39,980 nucleotides of DNA from Nitrososphaerota archaeon (GTDB lineage: Archaea > Thermoproteota > Nitrososphaeria > Nitrososphaerales > Nitrosopumilaceae). The stretch lies in assembly GCA_028866895.1 (NCBI GenBank), contig JAGWHF010000002.1, positions 241,279 to 281,258 of the forward strand, given 5' to 3'. Below, in pieces: positions 32,178 through 39,980 of this stretch. The translations under genes and the position numbers were made by a program. Numbering within the stretch: position 1 is the first letter of the stretch; each line of letters begins with the position of its first letter. The notes beneath the pieces were generated by a model that made no database searches, was not told the DNA's origin, and saw only the letters and a list, made by a program, of their open reading frames with translations.

Positions 32178-32675
32178 CTATATCACTTTCTCAAGTTTCT
32201 TAAAATTTGATGTAATAGTCATCTTGCCAGATGCGAGACTGAATATTACTTTTCTTCCAAAGTTGCTTCCCGTATCCTCAGATATGAGAGGGATGTTCTT
32301 CTCATGAAGAATCCCTTTTATTGCCTGGACGTTCCTTTTCCCGACATCTATACTTCCTCCTCCTGCCCGGCTTGGAAACATAGAGGCCCCGCCTGCAATT
32401 TTCGACCTTATTCTAGTCCTTTCTGCGCCCATTCGAACCAATCCATCAATCATGTTGGCAATCGCCTCGTCAGCATACTTGCCCTCCATGCCCACCGTCG
32501 TACTCTTGCCAGATGCTTCTTTCCTTGGAAGCATCACGTGGGCCATGCCAGCAACCTTGGCATTAAAGTCAAAGAGGCACACAGCCACGCATGATCCAAC
32601 GAAAGTTTTCAGATCCACATTTTTTCCGCTCATCATTGCTATTCCCCCCATTTCTACCTCCCCGACTATCTTCAT
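32178..32675 (-). CDS. cheD: Chemoreceptor glutamine deamidase CheD
   Basis: 165 residues. It deamidates Gln residues on chemoreceptors and interacts with CheC. The catalytic Cys is in LKTFVGSCVAVCLFD (Cys29), the His in GMAHVMLP (His46) and the Thr/Ser region in KIAGGASMF. It is 6 nt downstream of cheR, inside the che operon. Presence of both CheC and CheD is the Bacillus/archaeal-type adaptation arrangement. Confidence 0.95.
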   Translation of the reverse strand: MKIVGEVEMGGIAMMSGKNVDLKTFVGSCVAVCLFDFNAKVAGMAHVMLPRKEASGKSTTVGMEGKYADEAIANMIDGLVRMGAERTRIRSKIAGGASMFPSRAGGGSIDVGKRNVQAIKGILHEKNIPLISEDTGSNFGRKVIFSLASGKMTITSNFKKLEKVI

Positions 32676-32681
32676 TTGTCA

Positions 32682-33638
32682 TCACCCTTGCTGGATAGCT
32701 ATTTTTCCTAACTCCTTGGTGCCTTTGGCAGGATCTATTTTTTGATAAATCCTTTCACGTGCCATCAGGGGAGAAAATAATTTTTCACACCGTCTACCTA
32801 GCATCGTTTCATCCATCCCCAACACTAGATATCCCGTTGGTTTGAGGATTTGGTGGAATTTACTCAAAATAAGATCCTGTGCTTCCTTTTCGTAATAAAT
32901 CAGCACGTTCCTGCAAAAAATTGCGTCCAGCCCCCTTGCATCACTTGACAAAATATCAGACATTCCAAACGAGACCATGTTTTTTATAAACTGGCATATC
33001 TCGTACTCTTTATCTTCCTCCTCCCCGACCGGAGTGAAATGCTTTCCAATTACCTCTACCGGTAGATTCTCAAGGCTTTTTGACGGATATCTGCCAAGGC
33101 GCGCCCATTCGATGGCCTTTTGACTGATATCACTTGCGATTATCTCTACCGTCAAGTCCCTTGTTTTCTCGAGAACCCGTGAAAACATTATCGCGATAGA
33201 ATAAGGTTCTTCCCCTGACGCGCAGCCCGCACTCCACACCCTTATCTTGCCGCTTTGTCCAGCGTTAGAAATCATGCTTGGCACAATTGTCGAGCTAAAA
33301 ACCTCGTAAACGGTAGGGTCCCTAAAAAAATTTGTAACATTTATGGAGAACGACCTAAATAATTCCTCAAACTCCTTCCTGTTATTTTTTAAAAAATCCG
33401 CATAGTCTTGGTACGCACCTATCCCGAGGATGCTCATCCTTCTGTCAAGCCTCCTTTTGAGGAAATTTGCCTTGTACCTCGTAAAATCGAGTCCGTAACC
33501 TTCAAAGATTTTTGAAAATGAATCCAAAACCTCTCCAGCAGGGGGATCTTCCTGCCTCTGACTTGTTTCTTCCTCGAAGAATCCCTCGTATGGCATCCTA
33601 CCGTTTTTCTCCGATGCTCCCGCGTGCTGTTTCTCCAT
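32682..33638 (-). CDS. cheR: Chemotaxis protein methyltransferase CheR
   Basis: 318 residues. Methylates receptor glutamates using S-adenosylmethionine. An N-terminal extension of about 35 polar residues is followed by the CheR helical domain (FTRYKANFLKRRLDRRM) and the SAM-binding domain with VWSAGCASGEEPYSIAIM, then IIASDISQKAIEWARLG and LDAIFCRNVLIYYEKEAQD. Length without the extension is normal. It sits 3 nt after cheC. Confidence 0.95.
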   Translation of the reverse strand: MEKQHAGASEKNGRMPYEGFFEEETSQRQEDPPAGEVLDSFSKIFEGYGLDFTRYKANFLKRRLDRRMSILGIGAYQDYADFLKNNRKEFEELFRSFSINVTNFFRDPTVYEVFSSTIVPSMISNAGQSGKIRVWSAGCASGEEPYSIAIMFSRVLEKTRDLTVEIIASDISQKAIEWARLGRYPSKSLENLPVEVIGKHFTPVGEEEDKEYEICQFIKNMVSFGMSDILSSDARGLDAIFCRNVLIYYEKEAQDLILSKFHQILKPTGYLVLGMDETMLGRRCEKLFSPLMARERIYQKIDPAKGTKELGKIAIQQG

Positions 33639-33641
33639 TTT

Positions 33642-34241
33642 TCATCCCTTCCGACCCAGAAGTTTGCGCGCATTCTCCGGGTCTTGAATTATCAGCATGT
33701 GAACCCTTATACCACTACCTTTGCAGGAGAACTCCACCTCGGTCATGATGTCGCCTTCGGCGGGAACGAATTTGGAGACAATAGGATCAAACAGGGATGA
33801 GAACGGAGCCATGGCAAACCCTGGTGTGGAAAGGTCCACCTTCAGCCCCGTATGGTCAGACAGTGCATTGAAAAAGGAGCCAGACATTATATTTCCAACC
33901 TCTGATACTGCAGACTTTCCCAGGTCGTCAAGAGTTTCAACCGATTCCAGACACAAAAGTTTTGCAGCAATCATCTTTGCGTCTCTCTCAGGGATCGAAT
34001 ACAATATGCCCAATCGTATATCACCTCCCCCATGGAGGAAAACGCAGCAGAGGGCAAGATCCTTTGTATGATTCCTAACATCCTGAATCTCCCCAAGTCC
34101 CGTACGTGTTTTCGTAACGACATGACCCACGGGCTCCCCAATAAGTGCAGATAGCGCCACCGCGGTTTTTTCAGCTATGTAGGAGCTTAGGAGGTTTTCA
34201 AGAGAGCCCAGTTCAGCACTGTCAAGTGAAGCGATTTTCAT
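33642..34241 (-). CDS. cheC: CheY-P phosphatase CheC
   Basis: 199 residues. The C-terminal half contains the phosphatase helix SAVSEVGNIMSGSFFNALSD (Glu and Asn of the E-x2-N motif present). The equivalent N-terminal helix reads LLSSYIAEKTAVALSALIG, where Leu and Ser replace the Glu and Asn, so only one of the two active sites seems intact. CheC removes phosphate from CheY-P and is stimulated by CheD. It follows cheA by 1 nt. Confidence 0.9.
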   Translation of the reverse strand: MKIASLDSAELGSLENLLSSYIAEKTAVALSALIGEPVGHVVTKTRTGLGEIQDVRNHTKDLALCCVFLHGGGDIRLGILYSIPERDAKMIAAKLLCLESVETLDDLGKSAVSEVGNIMSGSFFNALSDHTGLKVDLSTPGFAMAPFSSLFDPIVSKFVPAEGDIMTEVEFSCKGSGIRVHMLIIQDPENARKLLGRKG

Positions 34242-34242
34242 T

Positions 34243-35811
34243 TCAATGCACCAACAACAGGGTAGGTTCCAAGATCAAGGCAACCTTTCCATCTGGAAGG
34301 ATCGTTGCGTTTGCAAAGTCAGCAAAAAGACCAGAAGATCCTTCCAGTCGCTTTATTACAATTTCCTGCTCCTTTTCCAGAGAGTCAACCACTAGGCCGT
34401 ACGGTGCGCCTTCCTTGTTTACCACAATGATGTTTACCTGTCCGTCCTTTCTGCAACTATCATTTGTCAATCCAAGCACTTCGGAAGCTCTTACGACTGG
34501 CATTATCCTTCCCCTCAAATTTATCATCTCCCTCCCGTGAACCCGCTGAATCTCCCTGCTATCGACAGTGACTGTGGAAGAAATGCTCGACATTGGCATG
34601 ATGAATTTCTGATTGGAGACGTTCACAAGCAGTCCGCCTATCACAGCCAAGCTGGTAGGTATCGTCAGTACGATTCTAGTTCCCTTGCCTTTTTCAGTCC
34701 GTATCTTAACCTGTCCTCCCACGTTTTTTACCTGAGTGATGACGACATCCATTCCGACACCCCTGCCGGAGATGTCAGTTATTTCCTTCGCTGTTGAGAG
34801 TCCCGGGGTACCTACCAGCCCTATTATGTCCTCATCCGACATCGTCTCCACCTCTTCCCTTGTCTTGACCTTCCTTTCGACTGCCTTACTCTTGATTGCT
34901 TCCAAGTCAAACCCACGTCCGTCGTCCCCAACCTCGATCTCAACCTTCTGGCCAACCCTTCTTGCCCTAAGATGGATGGTTCCAACAGCCGGTTTGCCCA
35001 AAGCTTCCCGCTCCTCTGCCTTTTCAAGCCCATGGTCTACCGAATTTCTGAGCATGTGCAGGACAGGTTCCATTATGGCATCGAGTACAGTCCTGTCCAA
35101 CTCTATGCCAGAATCCTCAGTCTCCATCCTTACCTTTTTTCCAAGCGATGTGGAAAGATCTCTCACCATTCTTGAAAACCTGTTAAATATCTGTTCAATC
35201 GGGACCAGTCTTATCTGCATCGTGTGGTACTGAAGGTCGGCAACCAGCCTGCCGAGGGTCATCAGAACATCCCTCCCCTCGCCCATTTTGTGGGACTGTA
35301 GCACCATATCCAGTTGCATCTTCGAGATCATTATCTGACCCACCAGATTTACTAGCGAGTCAAGATCCTGCATTTTTACCCTTACCGTGGGGGTTTGTGC
35401 AGGTTTGTGCGGACTATCTTGTCCACCTACAGCCTCAGGCTTTATTGAGCCCGGATTCCTTACCTGTTCTAAAAATCCTTCCAGATCAATTCGCTTTGTC
35501 TCGTCACTGACCAGTTCCCTTAGGTGATCCACACCAAGAAGAAGGACATTGCCCAATCCCGCAGATATGGAGGTCTCTCCCTGTCTTAATTTTTCAAAAA
35601 TCCCCTCAATTGCCTTGCAGATCTCGGTAATCTGACCATACTGCATGGTGGCAGCCATTCCCTTAAGGGTGTGGGCAGATCGGAACAGGACGTCCACATG
35701 CTCCTTTACCGACGGCTCCTCCTCCAGTTTAACAAGGTAAAGACTCAGGTTATCCACATGTTCCAAAGCTTCCTGTACAAACAGTTCTCGATACTTGCTG
35801 TTCTCAGACAC
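34243..35811 (-). CDS. cheA: Chemotaxis histidine kinase CheA
   Basis: 522 residues. The P1 (Hpt) domain has FRSAHTLKGMAATM with His47 as the phosphorylated residue. A short linker (about 105-140, rich in Pro, Gln and Gly) leads straight into the P3 dimerisation helices (MQDLDSLVNLVGQIMISKM). P4 has LRNSVDHGLEKAEEREALGKP, GDDGRGFD, GTPGLSTA and GRGVGMDVV; P5 is CheW-like (VSNQKFIMPMSSISSTV). There is no clear P2 CheY/CheB-docking domain. The start is GTG at 35809-35811, overlapping the cheB end by 8 nt. Confidence 0.95.
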   Translation of the reverse strand: MSENSKYRELFVQEALEHVDNLSLYLVKLEEEPSVKEHVDVLFRSAHTLKGMAATMQYGQITEICKAIEGIFEKLRQGETSISAGLGNVLLLGVDHLRELVSDETKRIDLEGFLEQVRNPGSIKPEAVGGQDSPHKPAQTPTVRVKMQDLDSLVNLVGQIMISKMQLDMVLQSHKMGEGRDVLMTLGRLVADLQYHTMQIRLVPIEQIFNRFSRMVRDLSTSLGKKVRMETEDSGIELDRTVLDAIMEPVLHMLRNSVDHGLEKAEEREALGKPAVGTIHLRARRVGQKVEIEVGDDGRGFDLEAIKSKAVERKVKTREEVETMSDEDIIGLVGTPGLSTAKEITDISGRGVGMDVVITQVKNVGGQVKIRTEKGKGTRIVLTIPTSLAVIGGLLVNVSNQKFIMPMSSISSTVTVDSREIQRVHGREMINLRGRIMPVVRASEVLGLTNDSCRKDGQVNIIVVNKEGAPYGLVVDSLEKEQEIVIKRLEGSSGLFADFANATILPDGKVALILEPTLLLVH

Positions 35812-36862
35812 CTCTTACCACCCTGGCTATCTCGTTTGCGATCTCCCCAGCCCCCACCATCCTGTCCACTGCATGGAGGTCGTTTGCAGCCTTTGCCATG
35901 CCGAAAACCACCGATGTGGATTCATCTTGCGCCAGGGTGATTCCGTGCCTTTTCTTTATCATCTTCATCCCGAATGCGCCATCCTGACCCATTCCAGAAA
36001 GGAGGACTCCGATCGTATCTGCCCCAAATACTTCCGACGCCGAGACCATTGTGACGTTTATTGCAGGCCTTACACCAAACCTCTTCGGCCCCTGGTTGAG
36101 GGCAATCCTGCGATTATTTGATACCTCCATGTGCATGTCTCCAGGTGCGAGCAAGGCAACTCCCTCCCTTATCAAGTCGTTCTGCTCGGCCTCCTTGACA
36201 TGTATCTTGGAAACCTCATTGAGTCTTTCTGAGAAGGATGTTACAAAATCCTTGGACATGTGTTGTACTATCAAAAAACCAGCGGGTAGATCCTCCGGCA
36301 TCTCAGACAATATGTCAGATATGACCCGAGGGGCACCCGTAGAAGCACCAATGACAACCACCTTTGAAGCCATGTTGCAGGAAAATTTTTCCTTGATTGC
36401 AGGAGGCCTCAACTTTGAGATTGCCTTTGGAACAAGCATTTCAGGGTTTGATCTTGAGGCTACCTCTATCTTCGATACCAAAATAGACTTGAGATTTTTC
36501 AAAATTTCACTGCCATCCTGCGGAATTGGAACAAAATCCACGGCCCCAAGCTCCAGTGAATCAAGAATGAGCTTCGTCCCAGACTTGCTGTAATTGCTTA
36601 CCACTATTATGTTGACTGTTCTTTCCCTCATGACATTCTCTATGAATGACAGTCCGTCCATATTTGGCATCTCAAGGTCTAGCAATACGACATCAACAGC
36701 AACATGCCTGATTTTCCGCATTGCCTCCAGCCCGTCCCGCGCCGTTTCTACCACTTTTATGTTGGTCTCGCCCGCAAGAAGGTCCTTTAGGAGCTCTATC
36801 ATGTATGCAGAATCATTTACTATCATGATGCGTATCTGGTTTTTTTCGGATGATACCATCAT
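35804..36862 (-). CDS. cheB: Chemotaxis response regulator methylesterase CheB
   Basis: 352 residues. The N-terminal receiver has IMIVNDSAYM (acid pair Asn16/Asp17, where Asp-Asp is usual), VVLLDLEMPNMDG (Asp62) and VVSNYS. After a linker (about 130-165) comes the methylesterase domain with VVIGASTGAPRVI (nucleophilic Ser), LIVQHMSKDF (His) and LSGMGQDGAFGM (Asp). It removes receptor methyl groups when phosphorylated by CheA. It begins 2 nt after the cheY stop and overlaps cheA. Confidence 0.95.
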   Translation of the reverse strand: MMVSSEKNQIRIMIVNDSAYMIELLKDLLAGETNIKVVETARDGLEAMRKIRHVAVDVVLLDLEMPNMDGLSFIENVMRERTVNIIVVSNYSKSGTKLILDSLELGAVDFVPIPQDGSEILKNLKSILVSKIEVASRSNPEMLVPKAISKLRPPAIKEKFSCNMASKVVVIGASTGAPRVISDILSEMPEDLPAGFLIVQHMSKDFVTSFSERLNEVSKIHVKEAEQNDLIREGVALLAPGDMHMEVSNNRRIALNQGPKRFGVRPAINVTMVSASEVFGADTIGVLLSGMGQDGAFGMKMIKKRHGITLAQDESTSVVFGMAKAANDLHAVDRMVGAGEIANEIARVVRGV

Positions 36863-36864
36863 GC

Positions 36865-37197
36865 CTATCTTGCCCTGATAACCTTGCTAATCACCATTGC
36901 TACATTTGATCTGTCAAAAGGCTTAACCACGTAGTCCCTTGCCCCGGCCCTTATCGCATCCTGTACGATGTGCTTCTGCTCAACCGACGTCACCATGACC
37001 ACCTTTGCTCTAGGATTGATCTGTATTATCGCCTTGAGGGCCTGTATTCCGTCAGCCTTTGGCATGTTGACGTCCATGGTGACAATATCCGGCTTTACCT
37101 GCCTGTATGACTCTACAGCCGCAACGCCATCTCCTGCCTCGTAAACCTGCGAGACAAGCCCGTGTGATACAAGGATGTCCTTCAGGACAACCCTCAT
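36865..37197 (-). CDS. cheY: Chemotaxis response regulator CheY, start codon unresolved
   Basis: Receiver protein carrying the CheA signal to the motor. From the only usual in-frame start (ATG at 37195-37197) the product has 110 residues and lacks the first beta strand and acid pair. The in-frame codons just upstream, 37198-37230, encode VKVLIVDDASF, exactly the missing part, so the true protein is about 121-128 residues. Yet between the cheW TGA (37252-37254) and that ATG there is no in-frame ATG, GTG or TTG. VTMDVNMPKADG carries the phosphorylated Asp, VVMVTSVEQ the Thr/Ser and YVVKPFDRS the Lys. cheW and cheY share one frame separated only by the TGA and 17 further codons. Confidence 0.85.
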   Translation of the reverse strand: MRVVLKDILVSHGLVSQVYEAGDGVAAVESYRQVKPDIVTMDVNMPKADGIQALKAIIQINPRAKVVMVTSVEQKHIVQDAIRAGARDYVVKPFDRSNVAMVISKVIRAR

Positions 37198-37251
37198 GAA
37201 AGACGCGTCATCAACAATTAAGACCTTTACTGCACTCGTTGTAGAAAAATC

Positions 37252-37734
37252 TCACACCCCCTTTATTGCATCTGCACTGCCATCATCCAGTAACTTTACG
37301 ATATCAAGAAGCACTATCAACCTGCCAGATGTCTTTGCAACCCCCTTTATGTATTCGAGAGACTCGAACCCTCCTGAAAGGTGTGTCTCTACCTCTTTTA
37401 GCGGAATGCGCATGACTTGGTCCACCTCATCAATCAAAAGTCCGACGAGTTTGCCATTTGCCTCCGATACCAGGATTCTTGCCTTTGGATTCAATTCGCC
37501 CAGTCCGAGGCCAAGCTTTTCCTTCATATCTATGACCGGAATTATAGTTCCCCTCAGGTTCATCACCCCCCTGACGAATCTTTTTGCATTTGGAACCTTA
37601 GTGACTGATTCCAATGGTCTAATCTCCCTTACCTGTTCTATACTAACACCGTAATCCTCCTTCCTGCCCCCCCTGCCATCCCGAAGACAAAACGCCACCA
37701 CCTGCAGATTGTCCTCGATTAATGTCTCGCTCAT
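37252..37734 (-). CDS. cheW: Chemotaxis adaptor CheW
   Basis: 160 residues; couples CheA to the receptors. It shows VVAFCLRDGRGGRKEDYGVSIEQVREI, RFVRGVMNLRGTIIPVIDMKEKLG (the core CheW signature) and a C-terminal beta barrel with GRLIVLLDIVKLL. A Gly/Arg-rich loop in the first strand pair (DGRGGRKEDY) is slightly longer than usual. It begins 2 nt after the MCP stop. Its TGA is followed in the same frame by the cheY N-terminus. Confidence 0.95.
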   Translation of the reverse strand: MSETLIEDNLQVVAFCLRDGRGGRKEDYGVSIEQVREIRPLESVTKVPNAKRFVRGVMNLRGTIIPVIDMKEKLGLGLGELNPKARILVSEANGKLVGLLIDEVDQVMRIPLKEVETHLSGGFESLEYIKGVAKTSGRLIVLLDIVKLLDDGSADAIKGV

Positions 37735-37736
37735 CC

Positions 37737-39077
37737 CTATGCCAGAGCCTCCTCTCCCCTCGCTTTCTGAATGTCGGCAAGGATCGCCCCTTCAGGAAGT
37801 CTGAACCCAGACGCAATCTTGGAGAGATTATCAGCCATACTTGCCATCTTTTGTACGGAAGCTGCGATCTCCTGCGTCCCAGCGGTCTGCTGTTCTGTTG
37901 CAGCAGATGCCTCTTCGGTAGCAGATGCATTTTGTTCCGAAACTGCGGCGATCTCAGAGGCTGATCTTGACAGCTTCTCTATTTCGGCAACCTGGGTTTG
38001 CGTGGTGTTTGCCACATCCATCACGTTTACTGAAACTTCCTTTACCTTTGCAGCAATCTCGTTGAGGGCCTTTAATGCCTTGTCAATCACAACCCTCCCC
38101 TCAGAAACCTCCTTGCTTCCACCCTCGATACTCTCAACCGTTGCCTTGGCATCATCCTGAATCTGTCTTATCAATGCGTCTATCTCCTCAGACGATTTTG
38201 CGGAGCCTTCTGCAAGCCTTTTTACCTCATCTGCAACCACGGCAAAGCCCCTTCCCGCCTCGCCTGCACGCGCGGCCTCTATTGCAGCGTTCAATGCGAG
38301 AAGGTTTGTCTGGTCGGCGATCTTCCTTATTACATCAAGTACAGATGTTATCTGCCCGCTCCTTTCAGCCAACTCCCTTATCTTGGTAGCAGACTCGTTT
38401 GTGACGCTGATTATTTTTGACATCCTAAAATCAGCCTCTGATGCCGATTTTGAACCTGTCTCTGAGATCATTCCGACATCCCTTGTCAGACTGGCTGTAG
38501 ATGCTGCCTTTAGTGCAAGGTTCTTCATGTCCTTGCTTAGTTTCGTCACCACTCTACTGGTCTCTTCCAATTCATGGGCCTGCGTCTGTGAGCCCTTAGA
38601 AATCTGCTGTATTGTCGACGAAATCTGTTGGACCGAGGAGTTCATCTGCTCAGTAGATGAAGCAACTTGTTCCGAATTTGATGCAACAAGCGATGAGCTG
38701 TCTCGTACCTGTTTTACTAACAACCTGAGATTTACAATCATGTGATTGAATGCTCTCGTCAGTTTGCCCACCTCGTCGTTTGATTTTGATTCCATGGTTT
38801 CTACCGTCAAGTCTCCCTTGCCAATCTTCTCAGCCATGGTTGCCATCCTCAGTATAGGTTTTGTAATAGAACGGGCTACAAAATAAGCTGGAATTCCCAC
38901 CACCGCCTGCATCACTATGCCTGTCAAGACGTAATGGATCGTGTTGTCAGCACCTCCGTTTCCTCCCGCAGAATAGCTGGAAAGGGAAACAGTAGCAATG
39001 GAGACGGCAGACGCCACGTTAACCATTGCGTTTATTTTCGTCTTCAGTCCAATCTTGAAAATTCGATCCAAACTCAT
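37737..39077 (-). CDS. Methyl-accepting chemotaxis protein without an external sensor domain
   Basis: 446 residues. Two membrane helices (about residues 16-36 and 49-68) are joined by only a dozen residues (AGGNGGADNTIH), so there is no room for an extracellular ligand domain. A HAMP domain follows (about 69-123, RSITKPILRMATMAEKIGKGDL), then the long coiled-coil signalling domain whose hairpin tip reads IADQTNLLALNAAIEAARAG and GRGFAVVADEVKRLAE. Methylation sites probably lie in the Ala/Glu/Gln-rich segments on each side. It may sense membrane or internal signals, or take input through partner proteins. It is the first gene of the che operon. Confidence 0.93.
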   Translation of the reverse strand: MSLDRIFKIGLKTKINAMVNVASAVSIATVSLSSYSAGGNGGADNTIHYVLTGIVMQAVVGIPAYFVARSITKPILRMATMAEKIGKGDLTVETMESKSNDEVGKLTRAFNHMIVNLRLLVKQVRDSSSLVASNSEQVASSTEQMNSSVQQISSTIQQISKGSQTQAHELEETSRVVTKLSKDMKNLALKAASTASLTRDVGMISETGSKSASEADFRMSKIISVTNESATKIRELAERSGQITSVLDVIRKIADQTNLLALNAAIEAARAGEAGRGFAVVADEVKRLAEGSAKSSEEIDALIRQIQDDAKATVESIEGGSKEVSEGRVVIDKALKALNEIAAKVKEVSVNVMDVANTTQTQVAEIEKLSRSASEIAAVSEQNASATEEASAATEQQTAGTQEIAASVQKMASMADNLSKIASGFRLPEGAILADIQKARGEEALA

Positions 39078-39904: not shown

Positions 39905-39980
39905 ATGAACTCTGTTTCAAGACGCAGAACTCGTCGTGGAGTCATGGGTATAGAAGCTGCAATTGTTATGATTGCATTTG
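39905..39980 (+). CDS. Archaellin (archaeal flagellin), 5' end only
   Basis: The window ends after 25 codons. The visible part has a basic leader (SVSRRRTRRGVMG) followed by IEAAIVMIAF, the class III signal peptide of archaellins: the archaellin peptidase cuts after the Gly, and the hydrophobic IEAAIVMIAF stretch forms the filament core. This is the typical thaumarchaeal form. Neighbouring che genes suggest an archaellum locus beyond the right edge. Two regulatory elements, a dyad and an inverted repeat, precede it directly. Confidence 0.85.
   Translation, partial: MNSVSRRRTRRGVMGIEAAIVMIAF

Follow-up and report, generated by a model that had tools for sequence, protein, structure and literature searches.

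The window, a stretch of 39,980 nucleotides, is the terminal part of a 281 kb contig in a 2.26 Mb archaeal metagenome-assembled genome (MAG) that is 99.7% complete and that, judged by its sequence, is of the Candidatus Nitrosotalea type, an uncultured ammonia-oxidising archaeon. Its minus strand carries a che operon in the order mcp-cheW-cheY-cheB-cheA-cheC-cheR-cheD, within which cheY is encoded. Listed in this order, the features are:

37737..39077, minus strand: chemoreceptor (MCP) gene, intact, with a HAMP domain (Pfam MCPsignal and HAMP), upstream of cheW
37252..37734, minus strand: cheW, intact (Pfam CheW, 120.9 bits), which begins with ATG, ends with TGA and shares its frame with cheY
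37255..37262, minus strand: Shine-Dalgarno (SD) sequence AGGGGGTG, inside the 3' end of cheW and 6 nt before the TTT
37246..37248, minus strand: TTT at the cheY start-codon position, which is ATG in Nitrosotalea relatives (gapless alignment with relatives)
36865..37248, minus strand: cheY, a receiver domain (Pfam Response_reg, 94 bits) with 127 codons intact from TTT to stop
35804..36862, minus strand: cheB, intact (Pfam CheB_methylest and Response_reg)
34243..35811, minus strand: cheA, intact (Pfam Hpt, H-kinase_dim, HATPase_c and CheW)
33642..34241, minus strand: cheC-like gene, intact (Pfam CheC, 42.9 bits)
32682..33638, minus strand: cheR, intact (Pfam CheR)
32178..32675, minus strand: cheD, intact (Pfam CheD)

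Divergent from the operon, an archaellin N-terminus with a class III signal peptide (MNSVSRRRTRRGVMGIEAAIVMIAF) lies on the plus strand at about 39905-39980, where it is truncated by the contig end. More archaellum-type genes, seemingly the rest of the archaellum cluster, are found at the end of another contig (C11), and from its gene content the che/archaellum system as a whole looks functional. The receiver of CheB has an Asn-Asp pair (IVNDS) where Asp-Asp is usual, a pair that the CheB proteins of the Nitrosotalea relatives, and of the others checked, also keep. CheF (PF04283) was not found in any of six Nitrosotalea genomes tested, the window genome and five others, so its absence is uninformative about this strain; all six have che and archaellum genes, and how CheY connects to the archaellum motor is not evident in them.

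The minus-strand codons that follow the cheW TGA (37254-37252) are GAT TTT TCT ACA ACG AGT GCA GTA AAG GTC TTA ATT GTT GAT GAC GCG TCT TTC ATG, the last of these being at 37197. Reading these codons bears out the first-pass annotation, which had reported that cheY has no in-frame ATG, GTG or TTG between the cheW stop and ATG 37197. The segment VKVLIVDDASF is encoded at 37230-37198 as described there, and because ATG 37197 sits behind the acidic pair, a protein begun at that codon would indeed lose strand β1 and both Asp residues. What had been overlooked is that a TTT occupies the position of the homologous ATG, and that a strong SD sequence stands ahead of it.

Alignment with cheY of relatives, which had been proposed as a check, shows that the start codon is present there: ATG is found at the triplet homologous to TTT (37248-37246) in every Nitrosotalea relative with a readable cheY start, and in none of them is a non-canonical start conserved. 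The junction reads TGA GAT TTT TCT ACA in the window and TAA GAC ATG TCG ACA in L009, and the equivalent segments of L039 (TAA AAC ATG TCT ACA), L010 (TAA AAT ATG TCT ACA) and L014 (TAG AAC ATG TCA ACT) likewise align without gaps. All four relatives thus share one layout, in which the cheW stop is followed by a single codon and then by ATG in the same frame. Since this in-frame spacing is identical to that of the window, it is the start triplet itself that differs, which can be explained without invoking an indel or a fusion. It also follows that the common frame is inherited, as is the absence of space for any other start; the observation that cheW and cheY lie in one frame was correct, but it is not an oddity of this genome.

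The closest comparisons are cheY of Ca. N. devanaterra (LN890280.1; L018/L048) and of the MAGs L009 and L039, which also lie behind cheW and encode receivers 88-94% identical to that of the window, but all of which have ATG in place of the window's TTT. The gene behind cheW in Ca. N. devanaterra is one of two cheY copies, and several Nitrosotalea genomes (L048 and L051, both Ca. N. devanaterra, and L046 and L049) have two near-identical copies about 4.7 kb apart. The similarity between the Ca. N. devanaterra copies sets in shortly before the start codon, a pattern suggestive of gene conversion or recent duplication. As these copies diverge upstream just before the ATG, a chimeric junction arising from collapsed copies was considered for the window, and is unlikely given that the contig spans both sides of cheY; neither a second near-identical copy nor a contig end within cheY was found in the window genome. 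A phage search with cheY gave no match.

Beyond its start, cheY appears intact, as had been stated. Response_reg (PF00072) is the only domain, covering residues 10-117 of 128 counted from the cheW stop, and the translation contains the acidic pair, the phospho-acceptor Asp and the conserved Thr/Ser and Lys in the segments VDD, TMD, VTS and VVKPF, of which the acidic pair and the TMD stretch match those of the relatives. Compared with the relatives, pN is 0.02-0.06 against a pS of 0.72-1.0, with silent change nearly saturated. By these rates, purifying selection on the gene is strong in comparison with all relatives, and nothing points to decay; general sequence decay is rejected by the pN/pS values and by the lack of any credible frameshift or internal stop.

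The SD sequence is unusually strong. The duplex of AGGGGGTG with the 16S 3' end GAUCACCUCCU, taken from Ca. N. devanaterra as the exact one was not found in the window genome, comprises 8 bp at -13.0 kcal/mol, whereas the SD sequences at the cheW-cheY junctions of the relatives range from -5.8 to -9.5. A duplex this strong or stronger is seen at 6 of 303 sampled starts in the genome (cheY included; the top 2%) and at 0.2% of random positions.

For a genome-wide control, about 1.0 Mb of the 2.26 Mb window genome was compared with 1.63 Mb of Ca. N. devanaterra, and 570 genes could be used. In eight of them the comparison flagged the lack of a start close to the homologous position, and inspection left cheY and one TusA-like gene. 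Among the 570, cheY is the sole gene without a start that its relatives have, and in no other gene is TTT the only start available, so a systematic use of TTT starts in this genome is rejected. No credible frameshifts were found in the genes compared, and such internal stops as turned up lay either at the ends of alignments or in spurious frames, from which we judge that the assembly is not error-rich.

We conclude that this is very probably an ordinary che-operon cheY whose TTT stems from a recent point change. Before it, the triplet was probably TTG, from which one substitution (G to T) leads to TTT, or else ATG. Among genes whose canonical start aligns to position 1, TTG is used in 59 of ~291 and 64 of ~333 (~20%); with TTG at the head of roughly every fifth gene, the shortest path to TTT would be one such substitution in a TTG predecessor. 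In prokaryotes, genes starting with GUG or UUG tend toward stronger SD sequences (PMC5622118), a tendency that the strong SD sequence here would fit if the predecessor was TTG.

The change may be a consensus error of the metagenome assembly, or a genuine start-loss allele that would abolish or strongly reduce CheY; we give these two about equal weight. Because the system looks functional, such a loss, if real, would be recent. Of the options put forward in the first-pass annotation, a base error or a real start loss fits best once it is placed at TTT 37248-37246, whereas a fusion is not supported and an ACG start is poorly placed. Two considerations weigh against a point change: the genes compared are free of credible frameshifts and internal stops, and a real loss would strike a regulator within an otherwise complete che set accompanied by archaellum genes, where selection would be expected to keep cheY. 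Start-lost alleles and base errors in draft genomes resemble this case in having an intact frame with a substituted start triplet, but unlike them the window cheY retains an SD sequence, and an exceptionally strong one.

That SD sequence, with its ideal spacing, also speaks for reading UUU as a weak but working start, on which the SD duplex and coupling to the cheW stop would place the initiator tRNA, yielding low levels of CheY. The conserved N-terminus STTSAVKV directly follows the TTT, the gene is under purifying selection, and a TusA-like gene of the genus appears to begin at ATT. Bacterial infC has a rare AUU start, and like the cheY TTT such starts are non-canonical triplets behind an SD sequence; AUU, however, mismatches the anticodon at a single position and can be conserved, whereas the cheY TTT has two mismatches to CAU and occurs in one genome only. 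Rare switches to AUU starts have been recorded (PMC5622118). With TTT at this position in no relative, and as the only possible start of no other gene among the 570, we regard initiation at UUU as unlikely, and the more specific proposal that it is sustained by the extreme SD sequence and cheW termination coupling as a means of holding CheY low as decidedly unlikely.

A start at the GTG that overlaps the cheW stop (37255-37253, in GTGA) is very improbable. The reading GTG AGA TTT (T) TCT ACA enters the cheY frame once one T is dropped, so that MRFSTTSAVKV... would result if the run of five T residues had one too many, or if the ribosome shifted by +1 at UUU. This GTG is nevertheless out of frame and overlaps the end of the SD sequence, which therefore cannot serve it. 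Recovery of a start by correcting an indel, as had been envisaged, is not favoured, since the indel-free spacing already matches that of the four relatives exactly; frameshifts are absent elsewhere in the genes compared, and the arrangement is seen in no relative.

There is scarcely any likelihood that CheY starts at ACG (37239-37237) or at ATG 37197. The former is near-cognate and in frame, as had been suggested, but it is poorly placed, 15 nt from the SD sequence and three codons inside the conserved N-terminus (MSTTS...); the latter is canonical but drops two elements that every relative keeps, strand β1 and the acidic pair. A CheW-CheY fusion made by reading through the cheW TGA, an earlier suggestion that has in its favour the shared frame with no other stop between the genes, is extremely improbable, because L009, L010, L014 and L039 inherit the same frame with a normal ATG one codon after a cheW stop that is kept in position, and no sign of readthrough is seen.

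The missing start thus cautions against inferring a novel mechanism, given that every close relative has a normal ATG at the aligned position; a new way of starting proteins is not the simplest reading, and a point change or base error accounts for the TTT most simply. If the TTT is real, it would offer a clean natural experiment on whether an almost non-cognate start can be carried by a very strong SD sequence in archaea or, alternatively, a natural CheY-null within an otherwise complete che/archaellum system.

The more durable lead is the TusA-like gene (RGMFCPEP), which lies outside the window (G000:C54:114578-114814, minus strand) and has ATT at its N-terminus. This ATT is kept in the window genome and in 13 of the 14 Nitrosotalea relatives read (L270-L292), most of the relatives having an SD-like AGGTGA/GGCGA some 6 nt ahead of it, and in many relatives the stretch from the preceding stop to the ATT holds no ATG, GTG or TTG. 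From this pattern of conservation, AUU looks like the start of this gene across the genus; in one relative, L292, the very same triplet is ATG.
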